From contig NZ_ML119083.1 of NCBI RefSeq assembly GCF_003789055.1, positions 62,001 to 126,000 of the forward strand: a stretch of 64,000 nucleotides of DNA. The letters run 5' to 3'. The position numbers and the translations under genes are program-made. This DNA comes from Histidinibacterium lentulum (lineage in GTDB: Bacteria > Pseudomonadota > Alphaproteobacteria > Rhodobacterales > Rhodobacteraceae). Below, piece by piece: positions 48,151-60,251 of the stretch. Numbering within the stretch: position 1 is the stretch's first letter; each line of letters opens with the position of its first letter. Below the pieces are notes generated by a model, which saw only the letters and a program-made list of their open reading frames with translations, was not told where the DNA came from and made no database searches.

Positions 48151-49457
48151 TGGACTGGTGGCGCAGTCTTCCGGCAGGCGGGCAGGACACGCTCATCGTG
48201 GTGGCGCTGCTGCTGCCCTCGCTGATCGTGGCCGGGCTCGTGCTGTCGCGCCTGACGCCCTGGCCGCTGGTCCGGGCGCTGCTCTGGCGGTTCCGCTGGG
48301 CCAACGGCGTCTTCGTGGCGCTGATCGCGATATCCGTGGGCATGGGGATCGGCCTCATCGCGCAGGAGCGGGGGCTGCGGCAGGGCACGGCACAGGCCGC
48401 GGACAAGTTCGACATGATCGTCTCCGCCCCCGGATCCGAGCTGACGATGATGCTGGCAGCGGTGTTCCTGCAGCCCTCCGACGTGCCGCTGCTGGACGGC
48501 GAGATCTACAACGAGGTGACCAACCATCCCCGGGTCGACGTGGCCGCACCCCTCGGCTTCGGCGACAGCTACGAGGGCGCGCCGGTGATCGGCACCATCG
48601 CGGACTTCGTGACCTACCTCAGCGACGACCGCATCGAGGGCCGGATGTGGCAGGACCCGTTCGAAGCCATCGCCGGAGCGGCGGCGCCCGTGGACATCGG
48701 CGATGTCTTCGTGCCGGCCCACGGCCACGGCGCCTCGGCCGATCCGGACGCCCACAGCGACGAATACACCGTCGTGGGGCGCATCGCCCGAACCGGATCG
48801 CCCTGGGACCGGGCGATCATGGTCCCGATCGAAAGCGTCTGGGCCGTGCACGGTCTGGCGGACGGCCATGCGCCCGAGGACGAGGAACGGCTCGGCCCGC
48901 CCTACGACGCCGCCTATTTCCCCGGGACCCCCGCCATCGTGGTGCGCGCCGAGAGCCTGCCCGCGACCTACGCCCTGCGCTCCGAGTTCAGCCGCGACAG
49001 CGAGACCATGGCGTTCTTTCCGGGCACCGTCCTGTCGAACCTCTACCGGGTGATGGGCGACGTGCGGCAGGCCATGTCGATCCTGACGCTGGTGACGCAG
49101 ATGCTGGTGGCGGCGAGCGTGCTCCTGGGCCTCTTCATCCTCTCGCGCCTCTTCCGCCGACAACTGGCCCTGTTGCGGGCCCTGGGCGCCCCGGCGAGGT
49201 TCGTGCTGGCGGTGGTCTGGTCCTATGCCGCGTCGCTGCTGGTCACGGGCGCGGTGCTGGGGCTGGCGCTGGGCTACGGCACGGCGGCGGTGCTCAGCCG
49301 CATCGTGACCCAGCGGACGGATATCCTCGTTCAGGCCAGCATCGGCTGGACGGAGATCCACCTCGTCGCGGCATTCCTGTCGGCCACGCTGCTGCTGTCG
49401 CTGATTCCCGCCTGGTCGGTCCTGCGCACGCCGGTGATGTCGGCGCTCAGGTCCTGA
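48150..49457 (+). CDS. FtsX-like ABC transporter permease
   Basis: Membrane protein of 435 residues with an N-terminal pair of helices (about 15-35 and 52-72), a large periplasmic region and three C-terminal helices (about 310-335, 355-385, 400-425), the MacB/FtsX topology. The periplasmic part has a His/Asp-rich loop HGHGASADPDAHSDE near residue 190 that could bind metal. The start is ATG 48150 or the overlapping GTG 48147. The end overlaps the convergent LacI gene by 11 bases. Cargo unknown; a Pho box precedes the operon. Confidence 0.86.
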   Translation: MDWWRSLPAGGQDTLIVVALLLPSLIVAGLVLSRLTPWPLVRALLWRFRWANGVFVALIAISVGMGIGLIAQERGLRQGTAQAADKFDMIVSAPGSELTMMLAAVFLQPSDVPLLDGEIYNEVTNHPRVDVAAPLGFGDSYEGAPVIGTIADFVTYLSDDRIEGRMWQDPFEAIAGAAAPVDIGDVFVPAHGHGASADPDAHSDEYTVVGRIARTGSPWDRAIMVPIESVWAVHGLADGHAPEDEERLGPPYDAAYFPGTPAIVVRAESLPATYALRSEFSRDSETMAFFPGTVLSNLYRVMGDVRQAMSILTLVTQMLVAASVLLGLFILSRLFRRQLALLRALGAPARFVLAVVWSYAASLLVTGAVLGLALGYGTAAVLSRIVTQRTDILVQASIGWTEIHLVAAFLSATLLLSLIPAWSVLRTPVMSALRS

Positions 49458-50469
49458 GGAGCGTGTCGCCGGGGTCGAGCGAGGGCTCGAGCTCCACCAC
49501 TTCGGAGGCGAGCGTGGCGTCGAGCTGGCGGGCGAGCACCATCTGCGCCGCCCTCTGCCCGATCTCGCGGCGGCAGGCGTCGGTGGTTGCGAGCCGGCGC
49601 GGCAGGCCCTCGAGCAGCTCTACCCCGTTGAACCCCGCGAGGCCCACGCGGCCCGGGATGTCGATGCCCTTCTCCAGGAGGTAGAGCAGCCCGCCCGCGC
49701 CGATCATGTCATTGGAATAGTACAGGAAATCGAGATCGGGCGTGCGCCCCAGCATGGCCGCGGTCATCTCCCGGCCCTTGGCCAGCGCCGATCCGCCGGA
49801 ATAGAACTCCTGGTCCGCCATCTCGATTCCCGCCTTGCCCAGCGCCCGGGTGAAGCCCTCGAAGCGCTTGCGGGCCCGGTGGTCGAGCGGCATCTTCGTG
49901 CCCATGAAGCCCACGCGGCGATAACCTTGGGCGATGATCGCCTCCGCCATATGGCGGCCGGCGCGGCGGTGCGAGATGCCGACGCAGCAGTCGATGGGCT
50001 CGCCGTCGGTGTCCATGATCTCCACCACCGGGCAGCCGGCGTTGTGCAGCATCGCCTGGGCGGTTTCGGAATGCTCGAGCCCCGCCACGATCACGCCGGC
50101 AGGGCGCCAGGACAGCATCTCGAAAAGGACCTTCTCCTCCTTGTCCTGCCCGTAGTCGGTGACACCCACCACGGGTTGCAGTGCCGTGGTCTCGAGCGTT
50201 TCCGAGATGCCGGAGAGGACCTCGGGAAAGACCATGTTCTTCAGCGAGGGGATCACCACGGCCACGAGGTTGACCCGGCTCGACGCCAGCGCGCCCGCGA
50301 TCTTGTTGGGCACGTAGCCCAGCCGCTTCGCCGCCTCCTGCACCCGGGCGCGGGTGGCCTCGCTCACGTCGCCCTTGTTGCGCAGCACCCGGCTGACGGT
50401 CATTTCGCTCACCCCCGACGCTTCGGAGACGTCGCGCAGGGTCAGCGGTCGGCGGGGGGGCGTTGTCAC
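49447..50469 (-). CDS. LacI family transcriptional regulator, GntR (gluconate)-like
   Basis: Repressor of 340 residues: helix-turn-helix LTLRDVSEASGVSEMTVSRV, then VPNKIAGALAS and a sugar-binding domain (VVIPSLKNMVFPEVLSGI, FLYYSNDMIGAGGL). The family includes repressors of gluconate and related sugar-acid use. I use the GTG at 50469, with GGAG nine bases upstream; a TTG at 50499 is in frame. It is a lone gene next to tRNA-Arg, and its targets are not evident here. Confidence 0.9.
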   Translation of the reverse strand: MTTPPRRPLTLRDVSEASGVSEMTVSRVLRNKGDVSEATRARVQEAAKRLGYVPNKIAGALASSRVNLVAVVIPSLKNMVFPEVLSGISETLETTALQPVVGVTDYGQDKEEKVLFEMLSWRPAGVIVAGLEHSETAQAMLHNAGCPVVEIMDTDGEPIDCCVGISHRRAGRHMAEAIIAQGYRRVGFMGTKMPLDHRARKRFEGFTRALGKAGIEMADQEFYSGGSALAKGREMTAAMLGRTPDLDFLYYSNDMIGAGGLLYLLEKGIDIPGRVGLAGFNGVELLEGLPRRLATTDACRREIGQRAAQMVLARQLDATLASEVVELEPSLDPGDTLLRT

Positions 50470-50584
50470 GGTCGTGCGTCTCCGGTGGCCTCTGCGCAAG
50501 AGTGTTACGCCCTCGCCCGCCGATCTCCAACCCGTTCCCGCCGCCGTTGACCGCAGGCGCCCGAGAGGGCAAGACCAGGGAGAC

Positions 50585-50661
50585 GACCCCGTGGCTCAAC
50601 TGGATAGAGCAGCCCCCTCCTAAGGGGCAGGTTGCAGGTTCGAATCCTGCCGGGGTCGCCA
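50585..50661 (+). tRNA. tRNA-Arg (anticodon CCU)
   Basis: The cloverleaf is complete: acceptor GACCCCG/CGGGGTC, D-arm GCTC/GAGC, anticodon arm GCCCC-CTCCTAA-GGGGC with anticodon CCT at positions 34-36, T-arm GCAGG-TTCGAAT-CCTGC, and encoded CCA (50659-50661). It decodes the rare AGG codon. Confidence 0.96.
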
Positions 50662-50687: not shown

Positions 50688-52787
50688 TCAGCCGACCGAC
50701 AGCGCGAACCCCGCACAGGGGTGGTCGAGCAGATCCAGAAGCTCGTCGTCGAGCTTCATGAGGGTGATCGACGCGCCCACCATGTCGAGCGAGGTGCAGT
50801 AATGGCCCACGAGATTCCGGACGGCCACAGCCCGGCGCGCCGAAAGCCGCTCGTGGACCCGGCGCGCCATGATCAGAAGCTCCATCATGGGCGTGCCGCC
50901 GAGCGAGTTGACCAGCAGCGCGACCCGGTCGCCGGCGGAGAGGTTCATCTCGGAGAAGAGCCGGTCGCAGATGTGGTCCACCGCCAGATCCGCGGCCGTG
51001 ATGCCTGTCCGGAGCACGCCGGGCTCCCCGTGGATGCCGATGCCCACCTCCATCTCGTCCGCGCCGATCTGGAAGCTCGGCCGCTGCGTCTCCGGCAGCG
51101 AACAGGATTCGAGCCCGATCCCCATGGTGAAGGTCGCGCCGTTCGCCTTGCGGGCGAGGCGTTCGCATTCGTCCAGCCCGTACATCCGGTCGCAGGCCGC
51201 GCCCGCCACCTTGAAGACGAAGACGTTGCCCGCGGTTCCCCGCCGCCCCTGGCGCTGTTCGGGCGGGGAGGAGGCGACGTCGTCTGTCGTGAGGATCGTG
51301 CGCACGTCGATTCCGTCCGCGGCAGCCATCTCGGCGGCCATCTCGAAGTTCATCACGTCGCCGGTGTAGTTGCCGTAGATGTAGAGGACGCCGGCGCCGG
51401 CAGAGGCGGCGCGGGTGCAGGTCAGCACCCGGTCCGGCGGGGGGGAGGCAAAGACGTTGCCCACGGCCACGGCATCGGCGAGCCCCTTCCCGACATACCC
51501 CAGAAAGCAGGGTTCGTGCCCGGCGCCGCCGCCGATGACGAGGCCGACCTTGCCCTCCCGCGGGGCTGCGCAGGACCGGATCGCCCGCAGCGAGCCGTCG
51601 ATCGGCTCGATGACCTCGGGAAAGGCCCTGAGCGCCCCGTCGAGGGATTCCGAGACCGCATCTCGCGGCGCGTTGAGAAACTTCTTGATGACCGTGCGCG
51701 GCGCGATCTCCGGCCTGTCGGTCCGGGCCCGGCGGGCCGCCGAGGGGGCAGAGGTCTGGACCCCGTCCGCCCGCAGGATGCCCTCGCCCGTCGCGGCATC
51801 GGTCACCAGGATGCTGGCATACCCGCCCCGGAGAGCAGCCAGCATCGCAGGGACCTTGTCATAGCCGCCGGCCACCGCGATCCGCGTCCTGACCTTGCGC
51901 AGGCGGTCGAGGCCGATCCCGATGGTCCGGTCCCCCAGTGGCCCTTCCACGGGAGAGCCGTGGGCATCGATGAAGCGCCCCGCGACGGAACCCACCGCGC
52001 GCCTGTAATGGTCGTGCTGCTCGACCGAGTTCTCGAAGAATCCGCTCTGGTGGATCGTGGAATCCGGTCGCAGGGAGGAGATGCCGAAGACGATCCGGTT
52101 GACCGCGTCGAGGGCGGAGATCTGTTCCGACACGACGGGTTCGGCCAGCAGGATGCGCCGCGCCTGTGCCGAGGACACGATTGCCGGGGCGGAGATCGAG
52201 ATACAGCGCGCCCCCAGCGACTCGGCAAGCTGCGTGGCGCAGGCCTCCGGCGTGTAGGGGATCACGGCCGTGGTCCCGCCGGTGGCCTGGACCACCCGCA
52301 GATCGCTCAGACCGCTGCGCCGCACGGCCCTGGCCACCGCCAGCATGGTCCGGCCCCAGGTGATGCCGACGGTGTCGCCGGAATGGACCAGCCGTTCCAG
52401 CGCCTGCGCCCCCGCCGCGCCCAGACGGTCGATCAGCGACCGCGCTCCGCCCTCGCCCGGGATCACGAGGCATTCCTCCAGGCCGAAATGCTCTTGCAGC
52501 TGCCGGGCGACCGAGAGCGACTTGAAGCGTTCGGCCGCGATGGAGATGTTGACGATCCCGGCGGCCCGGGCATCGGCGAGATAGCTGTTCACGGTGGGGC
52601 GGGAGACGTTCATCGCCTCGGCGATCTCGCCCTGGGTCAGGCCCTCCTCGTAGTAGAGCCAGCTGGCCCAGAGCAACGGGTCGTCGTTGAACCGCAGCGG
52701 CGGGCCGGCCTGTCCGGCGGCGGCAGACTGGGCTCCGCGCCCCCGGGTCGTCCCGGTCTTCTGCCGGCGCGTCGCGGACCCCGCCAT
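50688..52787 (-). CDS. Fusion: SorC-type sugar-sensing transcriptional regulator + dihydroxyacetone kinase DhaK domain
   Basis: 699-residue bifunctional protein. Residues about 40-75 form a SorC/DeoR-like helix-turn-helix (LTQGEIAEAMNVSRPTVNSY); about 90-340 the SorC sugar-binding domain (GDTVGITWGRTMLAVA, GGTTAVIPYTPE); about 366-699 a DhaK domain with GGGAGHEPCFLGYVGKGL and the substrate-binding His586 in GIGIHGEPG. DhaK holds dihydroxyacetone or a ketotetrose covalently on that His while DhaL supplies ATP. The fusion could couple substrate binding to gene control. It is the last gene of the operon and overlaps the dhaL-like gene by one base. Confidence 0.9.
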   Translation of the reverse strand: MAGSATRRQKTGTTRGRGAQSAAAGQAGPPLRFNDDPLLWASWLYYEEGLTQGEIAEAMNVSRPTVNSYLADARAAGIVNISIAAERFKSLSVARQLQEHFGLEECLVIPGEGGARSLIDRLGAAGAQALERLVHSGDTVGITWGRTMLAVARAVRRSGLSDLRVVQATGGTTAVIPYTPEACATQLAESLGARCISISAPAIVSSAQARRILLAEPVVSEQISALDAVNRIVFGISSLRPDSTIHQSGFFENSVEQHDHYRRAVGSVAGRFIDAHGSPVEGPLGDRTIGIGLDRLRKVRTRIAVAGGYDKVPAMLAALRGGYASILVTDAATGEGILRADGVQTSAPSAARRARTDRPEIAPRTVIKKFLNAPRDAVSESLDGALRAFPEVIEPIDGSLRAIRSCAAPREGKVGLVIGGGAGHEPCFLGYVGKGLADAVAVGNVFASPPPDRVLTCTRAASAGAGVLYIYGNYTGDVMNFEMAAEMAAADGIDVRTILTTDDVASSPPEQRQGRRGTAGNVFVFKVAGAACDRMYGLDECERLARKANGATFTMGIGLESCSLPETQRPSFQIGADEMEVGIGIHGEPGVLRTGITAADLAVDHICDRLFSEMNLSAGDRVALLVNSLGGTPMMELLIMARRVHERLSARRAVAVRNLVGHYCTSLDMVGASITLMKLDDELLDLLDHPCAGFALSVG

Positions 52788-53452
52788 CAGGCGCCGATGC
52801 CGGCAGGCCGCGGACCGACGGCCTCCGCGAATCCCTCGAGGATCAGCGCCGCCGAGACCGCGCCCGGATCGCGATGGCCAAGGCTCCGCTCCTTCAGTCG
52901 CGCGGCCCGGCCGCGGGAGGCGATCATCGTGGCCGTGGCCTCCGCGCCGGCGCGGGCGCTCGCGGCCGCCCGCCAGGCGGCCTCGGAAACGCTCGCCCCC
53001 TCGCGCAGCGCCAGCTCCGCCGCGTGAACGGCGGGCAACCAGGCATCCAGCATCGTCTTGTCGCCCGGCCCCGCCTTGCCGCGCCGCGCGATGCCCCCCG
53101 CCATGGCGGCGAGGAACTCCGGTGACCTGTCCAGCGGCAACGGCCCCCGGTCGAGCGCCTTGGCCGCGTCGAGCATGGCGGTGGCATAGAGCGGGCCGAC
53201 CGTTGCGCCGACATCCCCCAGGAATGCCGCTGCGGCCTCCCGCATCAGCGCGGCCGGATCCTCCGGAACATGCCGCCCCCCCCGGACCAGAGCCGCGACG
53301 GCCGCGAATCCGTTCGCCATTGAGGAGCCGTGGTCCCCGTCTCCGATCTCCCCGTCGAGGTGACAGAGCTCGTCCCGCTGCGCGTCGAGCCGCGCGGCGG
53401 CGGCCTGGAAGAAGCGCGCGAGAAAGTCGGTATCGATCCGGCCCATGGCCAT
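52787..53452 (-). CDS. Dihydroxyacetone kinase subunit DhaL-like
   Basis: ATP-binding subunit, 221 residues, carrying the Mg-ADP motif in DGEIGDGDHGSSMANGF near residue 35 and GATVGPLYATAML and GPGDKTMLDAW further on. It phosphorylates the ketose bound by a DhaK subunit. No PTS-type DhaM gene is present, so ATP is the expected donor. I use ATG 53452, which gives the normal lead; an ATG at 53494 overlapping the upstream stop would add 14 residues. The C-terminal about 30 residues are less conserved. Confidence 0.88.
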   Translation of the reverse strand: MAMGRIDTDFLARFFQAAAARLDAQRDELCHLDGEIGDGDHGSSMANGFAAVAALVRGGRHVPEDPAALMREAAAAFLGDVGATVGPLYATAMLDAAKALDRGPLPLDRSPEFLAAMAGGIARRGKAGPGDKTMLDAWLPAVHAAELALREGASVSEAAWRAAASARAGAEATATMIASRGRAARLKERSLGHRDPGAVSAALILEGFAEAVGPRPAGIGA

Positions 53453-53493
53453 TTCATGAGCCAAATCGGCGCCCCCGACAAGGCGCGGGGGCA

Positions 53494-54123
53494 TCAGCCG
53501 AGACGGCGGGCGACGCCGTCCGCAAGCGCGGTGAGGATCATGCAGCACGATGTCGCTCCGGCGTCGAGAACCCCGCGGGACCGCTCGCCGAGGCGGCTCG
53601 ACCGGCCGACCCTGGCCACCATGTCCTTCGTGGCGTCACGCCCTTCGGCCGCGGCGGACTTCATCGCCTCGAGCTTCGCGGCAAACTCGCCCGCCGTACC
53701 GGCAAACGCATCGACCGCGGGACACAGCGTGTCGAGCAGCGTCTTGTCGCCGACCTGCGCCTCGCCGATGGCCATGACGCCGTCCCGGCCGGCCGCGAGC
53801 ATTGCGCCGAAAGCCTCGGCATCGACGGTGTCCTGGCCGGCGATCGCGCTCGCCATGTCATCGAACATCATCCCGTAGAGCGGCCCCATGGACCCGCCGA
53901 TCTCCGACATCAGCACGTCGGACAGCTTCGAGAACCCGGCATCCAGAGTATCGCCGTCCGCGACCCGCTCCGCGGCCCGGCCGAATCCCTTGGCCATGTT
54001 GTTGCCGTGGTCGCCGTCACCGATCCGGCCGTCGATTTCGGAGAGATACGCCTTGTTGGCCACGATCACCGCGGCGATCTCCCGCACGATCGCGCCGGCG
54101 CCGGCGTTGGCGAAACCGCTCAT
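53494..54123 (-). CDS. Dihydroxyacetone kinase subunit DhaL
   Basis: Second DhaL subunit, 209 residues, with DGRIGDGDHGNNMAKGF near residue 31, GGSMGPLYGMMF and VGDKTLLDTLCPA. It is closer to the family norm than the neighbouring copy. It overlaps the dhaK gene by four bases, so it is probably the main partner of that DhaK, leaving the other DhaL for the regulator-DhaK fusion. Confidence 0.91.
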   Translation of the reverse strand: MSGFANAGAGAIVREIAAVIVANKAYLSEIDGRIGDGDHGNNMAKGFGRAAERVADGDTLDAGFSKLSDVLMSEIGGSMGPLYGMMFDDMASAIAGQDTVDAEAFGAMLAAGRDGVMAIGEAQVGDKTLLDTLCPAVDAFAGTAGEFAAKLEAMKSAAAEGRDATKDMVARVGRSSRLGERSRGVLDAGATSCCMILTALADGVARRLG

Positions 54124-55124
54124 GCCGACACCCCCAGTCCCGGGCTTGCCGCCTCGGCCGCCAGGAGGGCCTTCAGGTCCTCGTCGAGCTTCATGACGGT
54201 CAGCGTCGCGCCCATCATCTCCAGCGAGGTGAAGTAGTTCCCGACGAAGGGCTTGTGGACCCGGATACGGCGCTCCGAGAGCTGGCTTTCGATCCGGTTG
54301 TAGAGGACATAGAGCTCGTTCACCGGCGTCGCGCCCAGACCGGAGACCAGGACGCAGACCTCGTCGCCCGCGCCGAGGTCGTGATCGTCGAGGACGATCC
54401 GCAGCATCTCGTCCGCAACCCCGTCGGCGGAGGCGAGGTCGACCACCTCCCGTCCCGGTTCGCCGTGATGCCCGATGCCGATCTCCATGCGACCCGCAGG
54501 GATCTCGAAGTTCGGCTTCCCGTTGGCCGGCAAGGTGCACGGCGCGAGCCCCACGCCGACCGAACGCGTGGCATCGAGCGCCTTCTGCGCCGCCGCCTGG
54601 ACCTCGCGGACCGAGGCGCCCTGCGCGGCCTTCGCGCCGCCGATCTTCCACATCAGGATCTCGCCGGCCACGCCGCGCCGCTTGTCGCGCTCTTCCGGCG
54701 GGGCCGAGCAGATATCGTCGTTGGCGACGACCGTGAGCACCTCGATGCCCTCCTTCGCGGCCATGCGGGCGGCCATCTTCACGTTCATGTTGTCGCCAGC
54801 ATAGTTCCCGTAGAGCACGCAGACGCCGCTGCCGCCGTCGGCCGCCCTGATGGCGTCGAGGAAGCTCTTGGCGGTCGGGGAGGAGAACAGCTCTCCCACC
54901 GCCACCGCGTCGACCATGTTGCGGCCGGTATAGCCGATGAAGGCCGGCTCGTGGCCGGAACCGCCCCCGGTCACGATGCCGACCTTGCCCGCCACCGGGG
55001 CGCCCTGCGCGACGACCACGCGCGCGTTTTCGGGGTGCTGCCGCACCAGATCGCCATGCGCCTTGACGAAGCCGCGCACGGTCTCGTCCACGATGTCGTC
55101 GGGGTCGTTGATGAATCTCTGCAT
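54120..55124 (-). CDS. Dihydroxyacetone kinase subunit DhaK
   Basis: Substrate-binding subunit, 334 residues, with GGGSGHEPAFIGYTGRNM near residue 53, YGNYAGDNMN and the covalent His220 in GIGHHGEPG. It receives dihydroxyacetone or a related ketose such as erythrulose, likely produced by the SDR encoded upstream. With DhaL it makes an ATP-dependent kinase. The gene follows the SDR by 31 bases. Confidence 0.92.
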   Translation of the reverse strand: MQRFINDPDDIVDETVRGFVKAHGDLVRQHPENARVVVAQGAPVAGKVGIVTGGGSGHEPAFIGYTGRNMVDAVAVGELFSSPTAKSFLDAIRAADGGSGVCVLYGNYAGDNMNVKMAARMAAKEGIEVLTVVANDDICSAPPEERDKRRGVAGEILMWKIGGAKAAQGASVREVQAAAQKALDATRSVGVGLAPCTLPANGKPNFEIPAGRMEIGIGHHGEPGREVVDLASADGVADEMLRIVLDDHDLGAGDEVCVLVSGLGATPVNELYVLYNRIESQLSERRIRVHKPFVGNYFTSLEMMGATLTVMKLDEDLKALLAAEAASPGLGVSA

Positions 55125-55155: not shown

Positions 55156-55905
55156 TCACCTGACGGTGAACCCGCCGTCGATCAGAAGATCGGCACCGTT
55201 GATCATGTCCGCACCGCCCGACGCGAGGAACACCGCAGCCGCCGCGATCTCCTCCGGTTCGGCGAACCGGCCGGAGGGGATCTGGGCCTTCATCGCCTCG
55301 CCTTTCGGCCCCTCCCAGGCCTTGCGACCGAGTTCGGTGAGAACCACCGTGGGCGAGATCGAGTTGACGCAGATGCCGTGCAGTCCCCATTCGAGGGCCA
55401 TCACCTTGGTCATCCCGAGGACGCCGAACTTCGAGGCGCAGTAGGCGAGGTGTCCCTCGATGGCGACGGTCGCAGCCTGGCTGGCGAGGTTGACGATCTT
55501 GCCGCCGCCCTGCGCGATCATCCGACGCGCCACGGCCTGCGCCATCAGGAAGCTGCCGGTCAGGTTCACGTCGAGCGTGCGCTGCCACGCGGCGAGGCCG
55601 AGCTCCTCGGCCGGGGCGAGATCCACGATCCCCGCGCTGTTCACGAGGATGTCGATGCGGCCGAAGGCGTCGGCAACTGCGCTCACGCAGGTCTCCGCGC
55701 TCACGGCCTCGGCCACGTTGCAGCCGAAGGCCTGCGCCGCCCCGCCGAGCGCCTCGGCCTTCTCGCGCGCGCGGGTCTCGTCGAGATCGCAGAGCGCGAG
55801 CTTCACGCCCTTGGCGGCATAGGCCTCGGCGATGGCCGCGCCGATCCCGGAGGCGGCGCCGGTGACGAGGGCGACCTTGCCCTCGAGCGGAAAGTCGAAA
55901 TTCAT
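55156..55905 (-). CDS. SDR family polyol dehydrogenase, GolD/DthD-like
   Basis: Short-chain dehydrogenase of 249 residues with TGAASGIG, NSAGIVD, NLASQAATVAIEG (catalytic Ser), YCASK and LLIDGGFTVR. Its overall text resembles GolD/DthD dehydrogenases, which oxidise polyols such as threitol to ketoses. Placed between a polyol/sugar importer and DhaK/DhaL it would supply the ketose for phosphorylation. The exact polyol is not determinable. Confidence 0.87.
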   Translation of the reverse strand: MNFDFPLEGKVALVTGAASGIGAAIAEAYAAKGVKLALCDLDETRAREKAEALGGAAQAFGCNVAEAVSAETCVSAVADAFGRIDILVNSAGIVDLAPAEELGLAAWQRTLDVNLTGSFLMAQAVARRMIAQGGGKIVNLASQAATVAIEGHLAYCASKFGVLGMTKVMALEWGLHGICVNSISPTVVLTELGRKAWEGPKGEAMKAQIPSGRFAEPEEIAAAAVFLASGGADMINGADLLIDGGFTVR

Positions 55906-55966: not shown

Positions 55967-56956
55967 TTACTGCCGCATCTCGAGGAGGGCGTCGACGTTG
56001 TCGAGCGTCACCGGGGTCCACGGCACGTTGTACTCGGCATCCGCGCCATCGTTCCACGGCATGTCGGGATACTGCTCCCAGATGTCGGACTGCGGCTCAT
56101 AGCTCTCGTCCGCCGCCTTCAGCACGACGTCGAGAGCGCCCTGCGCCTGGGCTCGGGCATCCTGAAGGATCGAGGCCATGTCGCCCGCCTTCACCGCCAT
56201 CAGCGCGTCTGTCACGCCATCGATGCCGGCGATGGCGAAGTCCTGCGGCTCGAGCCCCGCGCCCCGGATCGCCTCGATCGCGCCGAGCGCCATCTCGTCG
56301 TTCTGGCCGATCACCCCGTCGATCTGGTCGGGGTGCGCAGTGAGCCAGTTCTCCATGAGGGTCTGCGCCTCGGCGCGCGACCAGTTCGCGGTCTGCCGCT
56401 CCAGCACCTCGACGTCGGGGCACTCCTCGAGGGCCATGAGGTTGCCCTCGAGCCGGCTGATCTGGGCGGACTGTCCGATGGGCCCCTCGAGGATCACGAC
56501 ATTGCCCTCGCAGCCGATCTGGTCGAGAACGTAGCGCGCCTCCATGTAGCCGGACTGCACGTCGTCGGAGCCGACATAGGCCGTCAGCAGGTCGCTGTTG
56601 ACCCGCGTGTTAGACCCCACGACCGGGATACCGGCGTCGGCCGCGGCCTGAACGGCCGTGGCGCCAGCCTCGATGTCGATGGGCACGAAGATGATCGCGT
56701 CGAACTGCTGCGTGATCATCGTCTCGAACTGCTCCTGCTGGACCAGGGCGTCGTAGCGGCCGTCGAAGATCGTCAGCTCGACATCGCCGGACTGCACCGC
56801 CGGGTGCTGTTCCAGCGCCTCGGACCAGATCTGCATGAACTCGGCCTGAAGCCCGTAGACGGCCGCGCCGACCCTGATCGGGTCGTCCTGGGCCATGACG
56901 GGAGCGGCCGCGAGGGCCATGGCGGTCGTCAGACCCAGCAGTTTCATCGTCTTCAT
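55967..56956 (-). CDS. Sugar ABC transporter substrate-binding protein (RbsB-like)
   Basis: Periplasmic binding protein of 329 residues with signal peptide ending APVMAQDD. It has Peripla_BP_4 features: FETMITQQFDAIIFVPID, NTRVNSDLLTAYVGSDD, GVIGQNDEMALGAIEAI. This is the third gene of the transport set (ATPase, permease, binding protein). Given the kinase and dehydrogenase downstream, a four- or five-carbon polyol or sugar is the likely ligand. Confidence 0.91.
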   Translation of the reverse strand: MKTMKLLGLTTAMALAAAPVMAQDDPIRVGAAVYGLQAEFMQIWSEALEQHPAVQSGDVELTIFDGRYDALVQQEQFETMITQQFDAIIFVPIDIEAGATAVQAAADAGIPVVGSNTRVNSDLLTAYVGSDDVQSGYMEARYVLDQIGCEGNVVILEGPIGQSAQISRLEGNLMALEECPDVEVLERQTANWSRAEAQTLMENWLTAHPDQIDGVIGQNDEMALGAIEAIRGAGLEPQDFAIAGIDGVTDALMAVKAGDMASILQDARAQAQGALDVVLKAADESYEPQSDIWEQYPDMPWNDGADAEYNVPWTPVTLDNVDALLEMRQ

Positions 56957-57017: not shown

Positions 57018-58046
57018 TCACGCCCGCCTGTTTCGCGACTGGTCGAGCAGCACGGCCGCCACGATCAGGACGCCTTTGATGACCTGCTGGTAGTAGGATT
57101 CCACTCCCATCAGATCGAGACCGTTGTTCACCACCCCAATCAGCAGCGCCCCGATCAGGGTGCCCCCGACATGCCCGACCCCGCCGGCGAGGCTCGTGCC
57201 GCCGATGACCACCGCGGCGATCGCGTCGAGCTCGTAGGCGATGCCCGCCTGCGGCAGCGCCGAGCCCGTCCGCGCGGCGAGGATCATCCCGGCGAGACCC
57301 GCCAGCGCGCCCGAGATGACGTAGACGGAAAAGCGGATGCGCGTGACGTTGATCCCCGACACGGTCGCGGCATGGGGATTGCCCCCCGCGGCATAGACGC
57401 GCCGCCCGAACCGCGTGGACGACAGCACGTACCACGACACGAAGAAGACCGCGGCGAAGATCACCACCGGCAGCGGGATCCCCCAGACGTCGCCCGTCCC
57501 GATCCAGCGGTAGCCGTCGGTCAGCGCGGGGATCGGCCGGCCGCCGGAGGCGAGGAGCGTCAGCCCCCGCGCCGCCGAGAGCATCCCGAGCGTCGCAACG
57601 AAGGCCGGGACATTGTAGCGCGCGACCAGCACCCCCGAGACCGCCCCGGCGCCCATGCCCACGCCGATACCGATCACCAGCGCGATCACCGCAGGATAGG
57701 GACCGCCTGCGATCGACGCGATGGACGAGGTCGTGGCGAACGTCGCCGAGACAACCCCAGCGAGCGCCACGACCGAGCCCACCGACAGGTCGATGCCCCG
57801 CGTCAGGATGACGAAGGTCATGCCGATGGCGAGGATGCCGTTGATGGAGGTCTGTCGCAGGACATTGACGATGTTGCGGGTCGTCAGGAAGTACTCGTTG
57901 GCGATCGAGAGAACCACGCAGAGGAGGACCAGCGCGATCAGGATGCCGAACCGCTGGACATAGGCGGACACCCGGGCCCGGTGGCCCGCGGCGTTCGTCG
58001 TCTCGGTTCCCGATCCGGCCGCCGCCGGCGTCATCTCTTCGCTCAT
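57018..58046 (-). CDS. Sugar ABC transporter permease (RbsC-like)
   Basis: Inner-membrane permease of 342 residues, eight to ten hydrophobic segments. The signature LTRGIDLSVGSVVAL lies near residue 83 and GGTSLAGGVGHVGGT near 270; NIVNVLRQTSINGILAIGM is the usual N-terminal motif. It starts 36 bases after the ATPase gene. Confidence 0.92.
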   Translation of the reverse strand: MSEEMTPAAAGSGTETTNAAGHRARVSAYVQRFGILIALVLLCVVLSIANEYFLTTRNIVNVLRQTSINGILAIGMTFVILTRGIDLSVGSVVALAGVVSATFATTSSIASIAGGPYPAVIALVIGIGVGMGAGAVSGVLVARYNVPAFVATLGMLSAARGLTLLASGGRPIPALTDGYRWIGTGDVWGIPLPVVIFAAVFFVSWYVLSSTRFGRRVYAAGGNPHAATVSGINVTRIRFSVYVISGALAGLAGMILAARTGSALPQAGIAYELDAIAAVVIGGTSLAGGVGHVGGTLIGALLIGVVNNGLDLMGVESYYQQVIKGVLIVAAVLLDQSRNRRA

Positions 58047-58082: not shown

Positions 58083-59564
58083 TCATGCGGCCAGATGGAC
58101 CAGCTCTTCCGCCGTCATCGCGGCGCGGCTCAGCTCGCCCGCGATGCGCCCGTCCTTCATCACGATCACCCGGTCGGCCATGCCCAGCACCTCGTCGGTC
58201 TCCGACGAGATCATCAGCACGGTGCCGCCCGCCGCGGCGAAATCCGACATGATCCGGTAGATCTCGCGCTTGGCGCCCACGTCGACGCCCCGCGTGGGCT
58301 CGTCGAGCAGCAGGACCTTCGGATCGGTCATGAACCACTTGCCCAGCACGACCTTCTGCTGGTTGCCCCCCGACAGGCCCGACACCTCGAGCTGATCTCC
58401 GCTCGTCTTGACGCCGAAAAGGTCGATCATCCGCTGCGCCGCGCGCTTCTCCGCGGCAACGCTCATGTTGACCCCCCGCGACAGGGCCGGCAGGCTCGCC
58501 ATGCAGAGGTTGTTCCGGACCGAGGCCAGGAGCACGAGCCCGCTCTCCTTGCGGTCCTCAGTGACGAAGGCCAGGCCCTTCGCGATGGCATCCGCCGGGG
58601 CGCGGACCCTGAGGTCCTCGCCATCCAGCCGCACCGTGCCGGCCCGGTGCGCGCTCAGCCCGAAGAGCCGCTCGAAGATTTCCGTCCGCCCCGACCCCAT
58701 CAGCCCGTAGAAGGCGAGGATCTCCCCCCGCCGCGCTTCGAAGGACACGTCCCGGACGCCGTTCCGCCCGTCGATCCCCGAGACGGCCAGCGCGATCTCG
58801 TCGGTCGGCCGGTTCTCCTTGACGAATTCCTCGGTCAGCGGCCGGCCCACGATCATCCGGATCAGGTCGCCCTTGCCCACGTCGCCGATGGCCCCGTCCG
58901 CCACATAGGCCCCGTCGCGGAAGACCGTGTAGCTGTCCGCAATGTCGAAGATCTCCGACAGCCGGTGACTGACGTAGATCACGCCCTTGCCCTGCGCCTT
59001 CAGCCGGCGGATCGCGGCGAACAGGTGGTCCGCCTCGCTCTCGCCCAGGGCCGAGGTCGGCTCGTCCATGATGATGACCTCGGCGTCGTAGGACAGCGCC
59101 TTGGCGATCTCCACGAGCTGCAGCTTCGCGACGCTCAGGTCCATCATCAGCGCGGTCGGCGGAATGTCGAAGCCGAGCTGGTCCAGAAGCTCCTTCGCGC
59201 GGGCGTTCATGCTGCGGAAGTCGACACGCCCGAAGGCGCGCAACGGCTCGCGCCCGAGAAAGATGTTCTCGGCGACGGTCATCGCCGGAACCGGGCTCAG
59301 CTCCTGCTCGATGATCGAGATGCCGTTCTCGAGCGCCTCGCCGGGCGACGCGAAATGCACCTCGCGTCCGTTCCGGCGGATCGTTCCGGCGTCGCGCTGC
59401 TGGATCCCCATGACGATGGTCAGGAAAGTCGACTTGCCCGCGCCGTTACCGCCGCAGAGCGCATGGACGCTTCCCCGCTCGAGCCGGAAGCGGCCGTCCC
59501 AGAGAGCGGCCACGCCTCCGAAGGACTTCTTGAGACCGCTGACCTCCAGCAGAACGTCGCCCAT
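58083..59564 (-). CDS. Sugar ABC transporter ATP-binding protein (RbsA-like, two domains)
   Basis: ATPase of 493 residues with two nucleotide-binding domains. The first has Walker A GGNGAGKST and LSVAKLQLVEIAKAL with MDEPTSALGE. The second has the degenerate GLMGSGRTE in place of Walker A, signature LSGGNQQKVVLGKW and LLDEPTRGVDVG. This asymmetry is normal for RbsA/XylG. It is the first gene of the nine-kilobase polyol operon, behind the repeats at 59599-59629. Confidence 0.93.
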   Translation of the reverse strand: MGDVLLEVSGLKKSFGGVAALWDGRFRLERGSVHALCGGNGAGKSTFLTIVMGIQQRDAGTIRRNGREVHFASPGEALENGISIIEQELSPVPAMTVAENIFLGREPLRAFGRVDFRSMNARAKELLDQLGFDIPPTALMMDLSVAKLQLVEIAKALSYDAEVIIMDEPTSALGESEADHLFAAIRRLKAQGKGVIYVSHRLSEIFDIADSYTVFRDGAYVADGAIGDVGKGDLIRMIVGRPLTEEFVKENRPTDEIALAVSGIDGRNGVRDVSFEARRGEILAFYGLMGSGRTEIFERLFGLSAHRAGTVRLDGEDLRVRAPADAIAKGLAFVTEDRKESGLVLLASVRNNLCMASLPALSRGVNMSVAAEKRAAQRMIDLFGVKTSGDQLEVSGLSGGNQQKVVLGKWFMTDPKVLLLDEPTRGVDVGAKREIYRIMSDFAAAGGTVLMISSETDEVLGMADRVIVMKDGRIAGELSRAAMTAEELVHLAA

Positions 59565-59598
59565 GTTGCCTCCTCCCCGAGAACATGTGCCGATGCAT

Positions 59599-59629
59599 CA
59601 TTTGTCGCATCGCTTCTGACATTTGTCAA
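59599..59629 (-). promoter_or_regulatory. Operator/promoter of the polyol operon
   Basis: CATTTGTC occurs at 59599 and 59620, exactly 21 bases (two helical turns) apart; the second copy lies in the perfect palindrome TGACA-TT-TGTCA (59617-59628). On the minus strand a TTGACA (59629-59624) forms a -35 with 17 bases to GACAAA. The SorC-DhaK fusion is the natural binding protein; inferred. Confidence 0.55.
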
Positions 59630-59812
59630 ACCAACTTGGAGAGATGTAAGGGAAAGGTTCTTTTTAGATTTCCCATCAATTACTTACGCTCCCACTGCCG
59701 GACCCGTTCGGACGTGGGTCTGGCCGGCGGGCGCCTGTCCATGCCCGCCTGGGGGGCGCTCCGCCCAGTTTGGGCCGGCCCCCCCCCGGACGACGGTCCG
59801 CCCCTGCGGTCG

Positions 59813-59827
59813 TTAACCTGTTGTTAA
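59813..59827 (+). promoter_or_regulatory. CtrA-type box TTAA-N7-TTAA
   Basis: TTAACCTGTTGTTAA fits the full CtrA consensus. It lies 65 bases before the ATG at 59892. Confidence 0.6.
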
Positions 59828-59891
59828 GGTTTTGCGCGACGGCGCCCGAGCGGCGCGGTAAGGCGTCCCCGGCATGTCTGTCGGAGGTTCC

Positions 59892-60251
59892 ATGAGTAAC
59901 GCGCGCACAGCAGTGCTGGACGAGATGACCGAATTCGCCATCGAGGAGCTTCTGTCGGGGCGGCCCGAGCGACCCGCGGCGCTGGTGCGGCGCATGGCGG
60001 AGCGATGGCCGGAAGAGCCGGCGCTGGGTCTCGTCTTCGCCGTCACCTCGGCCGTCGCGGGGATCGAGGACAGCTTCGGAGGCGCCGCGCCGCAGGAGCC
60101 GGTGATCAGTCTCGGCTACCGGATCGCGGCCTTGGCGGCGGCGGATGTCCACGCGATCCAGGCCATGGGTCATGTCCCCGCCTTGGCGGAGGACCTCCTG
60201 CACTTCTGGCGTCGGTCCGATCCCGCCTATTTCGGCCCGAGGGGACGGTAG
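59892..60251 (+). CDS. Conserved-looking small protein of unknown function, CtrA-box gene
   Basis: 119-residue soluble acidic protein, mostly helical by its residue pattern, with DEMTEFAIEELLSG, GLVFAVTSAVAGIED and a C-terminal LAEDLLHFWRRSDPAYFG. No family recognised. The start at 59892 has a GGAGG site; the ATG at 59874 is less likely. The CtrA-type box upstream suggests cell-cycle or motility/gene-transfer linked expression, as for other CtrA targets in this group. Confidence 0.7.
   Translation: MSNARTAVLDEMTEFAIEELLSGRPERPAALVRRMAERWPEEPALGLVFAVTSAVAGIEDSFGGAAPQEPVISLGYRIAALAAADVHAIQAMGHVPALAEDLLHFWRRSDPAYFGPRGR

Follow-up and report, generated by a model that had tools for sequence, protein, structure and literature searches.

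The window (the whole stretch of 64,000 nucleotides of Histidinibacterium lentulum DNA analysed here) carries on its minus strand an operon in which a SorC-type transcriptional regulator and a dihydroxyacetone kinase subunit, DhaK, are encoded as one protein. This SorC-DhaK fusion is specified by a single open frame at 50688-52787(−), which starts with ATG, contains no internal stop and encodes 699 amino acids. Coordinates, strand and frame agreed exactly with those of an earlier reading of the letters (the sequence-only reading), and Pfam confirmed its assignment of a helix-turn-helix (HTH), a SorC sugar-binding domain and a full DhaK domain to one chain. From 59564 downward, the operon consists of genes for the ATPase, permease and binding protein of an ATP-binding cassette (ABC) transporter, a dehydrogenase, a free DhaK, DhaL1, DhaL2 and the fusion (Table 1); the free DhaK and the two DhaL claimed previously were recovered by Pfam, and one base is common to the DhaL2 stop and the fusion start. 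The open reading frame (ORF) of DhaL1 extends to 54651, its start near 54120 being an approximation, and the DAK2 domain of DhaL2 occupies residues 68-242 of its ORF, the true start of which may be internal. The sequence-only reading had put the fusion at the operon end, which holds here and for the order found in Rhodobacteraceae (DhaL2 then fusion) but not for most Rhizobiales loci, where the fusion precedes DhaL2. No DhaM was found in the H. lentulum genome, so that a kinase of the ATP type is likely and one of the phosphotransferase system type was rejected.

Table 1. Genes and predicted sites of the SorC-DhaK operon (positions in the window).
Feature	Position	Strand	Basis and remarks
Primary operator palindrome CTGACATTTGTCAA, predicted	59616..59629	.	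conserved motif
Weaker second operator copy GCATCATTTGTCGC, predicted	59595..59608	.	21 bp from first; position only
ABC ATPase, first gene of operon	58083..59564	-	Pfam and profile matches
ABC permease	57018..58046	-	Pfam and profile matches
Periplasmic sugar-binding protein, Rbs-type ABC transporter	55967..56956	-	Pfam and profile matches
Short-chain dehydrogenase, GolD/DthD family	55156..55905	-	NF005309, 375.6 bits (cut-off 286); presumed polyol-to-ketose role
Free DhaK (K1)	54120..55124	-	Pfam; clade apart from fused DhaK
DhaL1, presumed partner of free DhaK	53494..54120	-	169.7 bits (cut-off 138.3)
DhaL2, adjoins fusion	52787..53548	-	161 bits (cut-off 138.3)
SorC-DhaK fusion	50688..52787	-	variable N-terminus 1-29; HTH ~36-80; SorC effector domain 88-337; flexible linker ~343-363; DhaK 366-692 (His424, Asp477, His586)

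Both halves of the protein matched their Pfam families far above cut-off. Sugar-bind PF04198 matched residues 88-337 with 198.9 bits (cut-off 27), and Dak1 PF02733 matched residues 383-691 with 383.9 bits (cut-off 31.4), covering profile positions 2-310 of 313 and hence the whole length of the domain. Several HTH-type Pfam matches fell within residues 42-87; the fusion thus has the HTH followed by a PF04198 effector domain by which the SorC family is recognized. Sequence matches in the PDB gave the same division, with the structures of DeoR, LsrR and SorC aligning from residues ~38-40 to ~339 and E. coli DhaK from ~365 onward. An AlphaFold model with 35 orthologues as input, used for domain and linker confidence only, comprised two mostly confident domains (mean predicted local distance difference test 82.1, predicted template modelling score 0.52) and low-confidence stretches at 1-33, 79-84 and the linker 347-362. 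Among 35 fusions the linker varies between 22 and 33 residues and has a mean identity of 23%, as compared with 78% in the HTH, 69% in DhaK and 63% in the SorC domain. In the SorC half, W144, G145, R146, G307, G308, D310 and K311 are invariant in these 35 proteins and presumably form the phosphate pocket of the NagB-like fold; given the conservation of this region, the SorC half probably keeps a ligand of its own.

His424, Asp477 and His586 of the DhaK half are identical in all 52 aligned fusion rows (one row, L086, is from the same genome as L005). The former two align with a His and an Asp of E. coli DhaK, which we take to be catalytic, and His586, as the sequence-only reading had it, with the His that binds the ketose. 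With the equivalog model TIGR02363 the fused DhaK scored 363.8 bits, below the cut-off of 406.25, as likewise did the free DhaK of the operon (355.7). Covalent binding of the ketose to a His is described for DhaK (available part of PMC6429413). Judged by residue conservation, the active site of the fused DhaK appears intact, and the domain may be active as a kinase subunit.

A pattern scan of genome contigs, from which the best 80 loci out of 592 related stretches were taken, yielded full fusions in L005-L048, L050, L051 and L062, a fusion broken off by the contig end in L049, and free DhaKs in the remainder. Full fusions were present in 5 of 198 genomes of the family and, at E <= 1e-150, in 1 of 385 of the class, namely the H. 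lentulum genome itself; in the phylum sample there were 5 in 398 genomes (E <= 1e-130), the own genome being counted here and in the family, one of them (G891) with a TGA within the matched stretch, and four further matches were free DhaKs. Among plasmid records 1051 had a match, and in 109 of these a single place accounted for 80% or more of the query. Orthologues of full length are found in Rhizobiales, Rhodobacteraceae and Thalassospira, among them one on pSymB of the model organism Sinorhizobium meliloti 1021, and all full fusions with a named organism among the matches listed were alphaproteobacterial. The survey of other genomes proposed with the sequence-only reading gave the same domain order in many alphaproteobacteria, nearly always with a partner DhaL. 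A frameshift separating the two halves, which that reading had named as refuting it, is excluded, and the probability that sequencing or gene calling joined two neighbouring genes is practically negligible, in view of full-length orthologues in many independent assemblies and of a frame free of stops.

The architecture is already known by name in public records, several of which (for plasmids of Ponticoccus, Thalassospira, Shinella, Ensifer and Sinorhizobium) carry the product name 'bifunctional sugar-binding transcriptional regulator/dihydroxyacetone kinase subunit DhaK'. This is the same family as the fusion, and the records give the name without operator, partner or mechanism. No functional study of a SorC-DhaK fusion was found among the open-access papers searched, most subscription journals being outside that search. 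The present analysis adds a putative operator with its tandem spacing and uniqueness, a DhaL2 dedicated to the fusion, a separate origin for the fused DhaK and a C4 setting.

In a quickly built DhaK tree of 144 rows (Shimodaira-Hasegawa-like approximate likelihood ratio support), 54 fused DhaKs, the cut L049 copy and six free DhaKs (L014, L024, L037, L117-L119), each of the latter followed by a DhaL, formed a group with support 100, and 49 operon DhaKs formed a separate group, also with support 100. By this separation, the fused DhaK is assigned to another DhaK lineage than the operon's own free DhaK, and a recent copying of the operon's DhaK was rejected since the operon DhaKs group alone and the fused ones with six other free DhaKs. 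Fifty-three fused DhaKs and L049 grouped together with support 99, leaving L045 outside the group at an unresolved fork. A single origin of the fusion is probable, with a second origin or a loss being possible for L045. A non-fused SorC beside the free DhaK of L119 was considered as the unfused ancestor and was not supported (36-37% identical); a SorC of the own genome with similar identity (L114) adjoins an aldolase/dehydrogenase gene. The sister-type free DhaK-DhaL pairs of L117 and L118 lie by a LacI-like regulator, a sugar isomerase and an ABC system (labels assigned by eye) and would be a case of this kinase lineage under a different regulator.

The DhaL2 gene accompanies the fusion in 54 of 55 loci. 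The motif D..[IVL]GD.DHG is exact in 52 of the 54 DhaL2 proteins, L035 and L039 having A for the second G. In the DhaL tree, which is less certain and has several long DhaL2 branches, DhaL1 formed a separate group with support 96. Of 54 fusion loci, 52 also contain a free DhaK, which is of the operon type in 49 and of the sister type in three; the exceptions are L045 and L047, and further DhaKs lie elsewhere in the genome of L047. In Thalassospira marina (L107:7414-9198) the free DhaK and DhaL1 are contained within one annotated gene. Median pairwise identities over the 48 loci with all five parts were 0.822 for K1, 0.741 for DhaL1, 0.725 for the fused DhaK, 0.680 for SorC and 0.574 for DhaL2. 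The distance correlations over these loci were 0.93 for fused DhaK-DhaL2, 0.93 for K1-DhaL1, 0.82 for K1-DhaL2 and 0.92 for fused DhaK-DhaL1; shared ancestry would explain much of these values.

The repeats at 59599-59629, through which the sequence-only reading had the fusion probably controlling its own operon, were present as CTGACATTTGTCAA and, 21 bp away, a weaker GCATCATTTGTCGC; by conservation they are the putative operator of this operon, which lends support to that proposal. The palindrome was common to the regions upstream of the ATPase gene in 38 loci and the window, GACAAATGTC occurring on one strand in 29 of these 39, and in most fusion loci it has the form TTGACA-WW-TGTCGA. With a position weight matrix built from these upstreams, all but three of the 54 fusion loci had a site at a score >=13 (51 loci, among them 13 of the 15 that had no part in matrix building); two extra sites, in L042 and L107, lay away from the operon; as the fusion loci are related by descent, these counts are not independent. 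In 32 loci without a fusion there were six sites in 553,822 bases, these loci being A+T-richer (GC 0.39 versus 0.62), which favours chance matches there. Scored with a symmetric matrix, 37 of 54 loci had their best neighbouring site, sought within 60 bases, at a distance of exactly 21 bp, and in 32 of those 37 this second copy exceeded the 95% background score. Palindromes doubled at this distance fit a dimer of dimers.

The exact 14-mer TTGACAWWTGTCGA occurred once each in 17 of 18 genomes or records (16 of 17 genomes, and pSymB), and by hand comparison with contig ranges all 17 positions fell at the fusion operon, while the reversed 14-mer gave no match in the same 18; the genome of L023 has a variant instead. 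As these 18 of the 54 loci were picked for showing the motif or a near form, this search speaks for uniqueness and not for presence. The perfect TGACANNTGTCA was found twice in the own genome, at this operon and at L115:3471-3482 (G000:C2:415471-415482). The latter copy, unscored by the matrix, lies just before a non-fused SorC-type ORF, ~7 kb from a third DhaK, and was not counted as chance for that position. Similar sites precede non-fused SorC genes of the own genome (L114:4124, and TGACATCTGTCA at L115:3471), which makes it likely that other members of the SorC family use operators of this type. The third DhaK (L114:13708-15320, own genome C2) comes with a weak DhaL (101.5 bits, cut-off 138.3); its neighbours are an ABC system of the Rbs type and a pair of SorC genes, with palindromes of the SorC type at L114:289, 309 and 4124.

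The site is retained despite changed operon contents in L014, L024, L037 and L045. In the first three it precedes operons with PfkB and a sister-type DhaK-DhaL pair, the ABC system being of a maltose/glycerol-3-phosphate-like type in L024, the only one so tested, and in L045 it stands directly before the fusion. In L008, L018 and L025 the site lies between a DerI-like gene and the divergent operon, and in L005, L006 and L107 it drifts to TGACTTTTGTCA. The half-site TTGACA is also the −35 consensus, and overlap of the operator with a promoter is plausible.

The operon contents point to a C4 ketose (threitol/erythrulose) over dihydroxyacetone itself, dihydroxyacetone being possible as well. The C4 substrate is favoured by the DthD-type dehydrogenase (Table 1), whose Sinorhizobium orthologue is annotated as D-threitol dehydrogenase, and by DerI-like (D-erythrulose-4-phosphate isomerase) genes near the fusion, found by tblastn within 7 of 55 fusion loci, one of them also tested against the DerI model. 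Genes resembling triose-phosphate isomerase lay within 3 of 55; tblastn found neither type in the window, and DerI is present elsewhere in the own genome. The annotation of the S. meliloti locus has no GolD/DthD-type dehydrogenase adjoining the kinases. The tetritol pathway used for comparison, with DthD, is of M. smegmatis origin, and the apionate pathway is a possible further source of C4 ketose, on which some lineages may draw. The tetritol pathway, in which conversion proceeds by EltD, LerK, LerI and DerI (available part of PMC10733421), resembles the present system in its polyol dehydrogenase, erythrulose kinase and erythrulose-phosphate isomerases, and differs in that the fusion operon has two DhaK-DhaL pairs, one of them fused to the regulator.

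Several loci bear on sugar context. A region of the own genome (L116, C2:186000-200000) holds an erythritol-like cluster with DerI, a DeoR/GlpR-type regulator, a SorC regulator and, by eye, an ORF resembling glycerol-3-phosphate dehydrogenase. The fusion loci L045 and L047 lie near apionate-type genes: the OiaK-like kinase of L047 scored 466.1 bits (cut-off 700), and L045 has, by similarity, an OiaK-like kinase, a RuBisCO-like protein and a phosphogluconate-dehydrogenase-type protein. In L107 a triose-phosphate isomerase gene is divergent from the operon.

Elements of the arrangement are known from other systems. DhaK-type proteins act in the transcriptional control of ketose operons in L. lactis (DhaQ-DhaS) and in E. 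coli (DhaR with DhaK/DhaL), the domains of DhaR being of the sigma-54 AAA type; these are separate proteins with other types of regulator, not SorC as in the fusion. LsrK, which makes the inducer of LsrR, is a separate FGGY-type protein. The LsrR/LsrK system shares with the fusion operon a SorC-type repressor, Rbs-type ABC uptake and an inducer phosphorylated by a kinase of the same system (on the fusion side as proposed), and differs in its separate kinase, the fusion having the DhaK domain in the chain and a DhaL partner; the LsrR model NF011947 gave 135 bits over residues 40-338, below its cut-off of 486. The covalent residue of DeoR is the lysine of 'QLKGG', in place of which the fusion has a threonine ('QATGG'). 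According to the available part of PMC11229326, DeoR binds its effector covalently, CggR is released by fructose 1,6-bisphosphate and dihydroxyacetone phosphate, and SorC regulators in general are tetrameric repressors on two half-operators, whose effector domain binds phosphosugars that release them. Like the fusion, DeoR and CggR of B. subtilis combine an HTH with a SorC-family effector domain; for these two, phosphosugar binding and a tetramer on two half-operators are described in the same source, and they have no kinase domain.

The parallel with E. coli DhaR, which controls dhaKLM (available part of PMC6643234), had been drawn by the sequence-only reading and fits poorly: the Pfam matches (E <= 0.001) include no DhaR-type domain, the regulatory half is of the SorC/DeoR type, and a DhaR-type classification was rejected. 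A DhaQ-type classification was rejected as well, the score of 206.9 bits with NCBIfam TIGR02362 ('DhaKLM operon coactivator DhaQ') being far below its cut-off of 413.25.

We give about an even chance that the fusion is a SorC repressor that regulates its own tetrulose (threitol-type) operon and carries the kinase subunit which makes its inducer. In the absence of substrate, two SorC dimers would join as a tetramer on the palindromes that lie 21 bp apart ahead of the ABC ATPase gene, keeping the promoter blocked. A C4 polyol would enter and be oxidized to an erythrulose-type ketose, which would attach to the fused DhaK at His586 and receive its phosphate from ATP supplied by DhaL2, and the ketose phosphate, rather than the free ketose, would bind the SorC effector domain and release the DNA, the bulk flux of the operon passing via the separate free DhaK-DhaL1 pair. 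That the very chain on the operator captures the ketose, a private DhaL phosphorylates it and the chain's own effector domain receives the product, so that the repressor makes its own inducer, is a more tentative proposal, distinctly short of even. If it is true, gene control would read the turnover of a kinase (ketose and ATP supply) instead of a pooled metabolite, and an LsrR-LsrK-like circuit would have been condensed into a single protein, which became fixed in one alphaproteobacterial ancestor and has since been passed on together with its operator.

Chief among the alternatives is a DhaQ-like sensor of free ketose: the fused DhaK would capture the unphosphorylated sugar at His586, and DNA binding by the SorC half would change with DhaL2, depending on its state or on whether it is present, phosphorylation being incidental or absent. 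We consider this rather unlikely. DhaK-type sensors are known (TIGR02362, DhaQ), a separate free DhaK stands in nearly every fusion locus, and evolution is faster in the fused DhaK and DhaL2 than in K1 and DhaL1, all of which would suit a sensor; the low score with the DhaQ model speaks against it, the invariant catalytic residues and the retained Asp/His motif of DhaL2 are more than a pure sensor needs, and the conserved SorC pocket region makes a ligand of that half's own probable. A signal that depends on turnover is preferred because it fits both sides of this evidence, the extra, faster-evolving kinase favouring a regulatory purpose and the retained catalytic residues favouring turnover. 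It is also conceivable, if improbable, that the protein does two jobs without cross-talk, as a normal SorC repressor and as a second kinase for another ketose or isomer that is merely co-expressed, the DhaK half being non-regulatory. The long variable linker and the two DhaK-DhaL pairs in separate clades would agree with this, but 53 of 54 fused domains fall in one supported group and the fusion is seldom separated despite its flexible linker. Two kinases for two isomers are moreover unsupported, as LerK alone, with EltD, serves both L-threitol and erythritol (available part of PMC10733421).

Several observations weigh against the preferred reading of an autoregulating repressor with an active kinase subunit. 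Since 52 of 54 loci have a free DhaK, flux does not call for a second kinase, and sensing might be all that the fused pair does; the faster evolution of this pair would also allow a non-catalytic role. The distance correlations do not prove pairing, since fused DhaK-DhaL1 nearly equals fused DhaK-DhaL2, and L038 has no DhaL2 in its locus. A rigid coupling of the two halves is not visible, the linker being variable and modelled with low confidence. As to the operator, the second copy in the window is weak (score −5.6 against a 90% background line of −4.8), L007, L031 and L123 have no site above threshold, and the similar sites before non-fused SorC genes show that operators of this type also occur without the fusion. 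In every upstream but that of L031, which has no site (38 of 39), the best hexamer 15-19 bases past TTGACA matches TATAAT at 3-5 of 6 positions, and a promoter scan of 59400-59900 found none.

Cases in which a kinase makes the compound that releases a repressor are known, with kinase and repressor as separate proteins. The stable union of the two in one chain, accompanied by a nucleotide-carrying partner of its own and, in most of the genomes searched, by just one exact operator, offers a compact case of enzyme turnover wired to transcription, and it suggests a regulator and an operator for a tetritol-type operon of many rhizobia and some Rhodobacteraceae.

Downstream of the fusion, 49447-50499 encodes a LacI-type regulator resembling GntR/IdnR (295.9 bits with the Pseudomonas GntR model, cut-off 400). 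Control of the operon by this gene was rejected, as it is not conserved, with 26-34% matches in 3 of 52 loci. Just past the fusion stop lies a tRNA-Arg (anticodon cct) at 50585-50661 on the plus strand, and the reading frames listed across it (MATPAGFEPATCPLGG...) look spurious.

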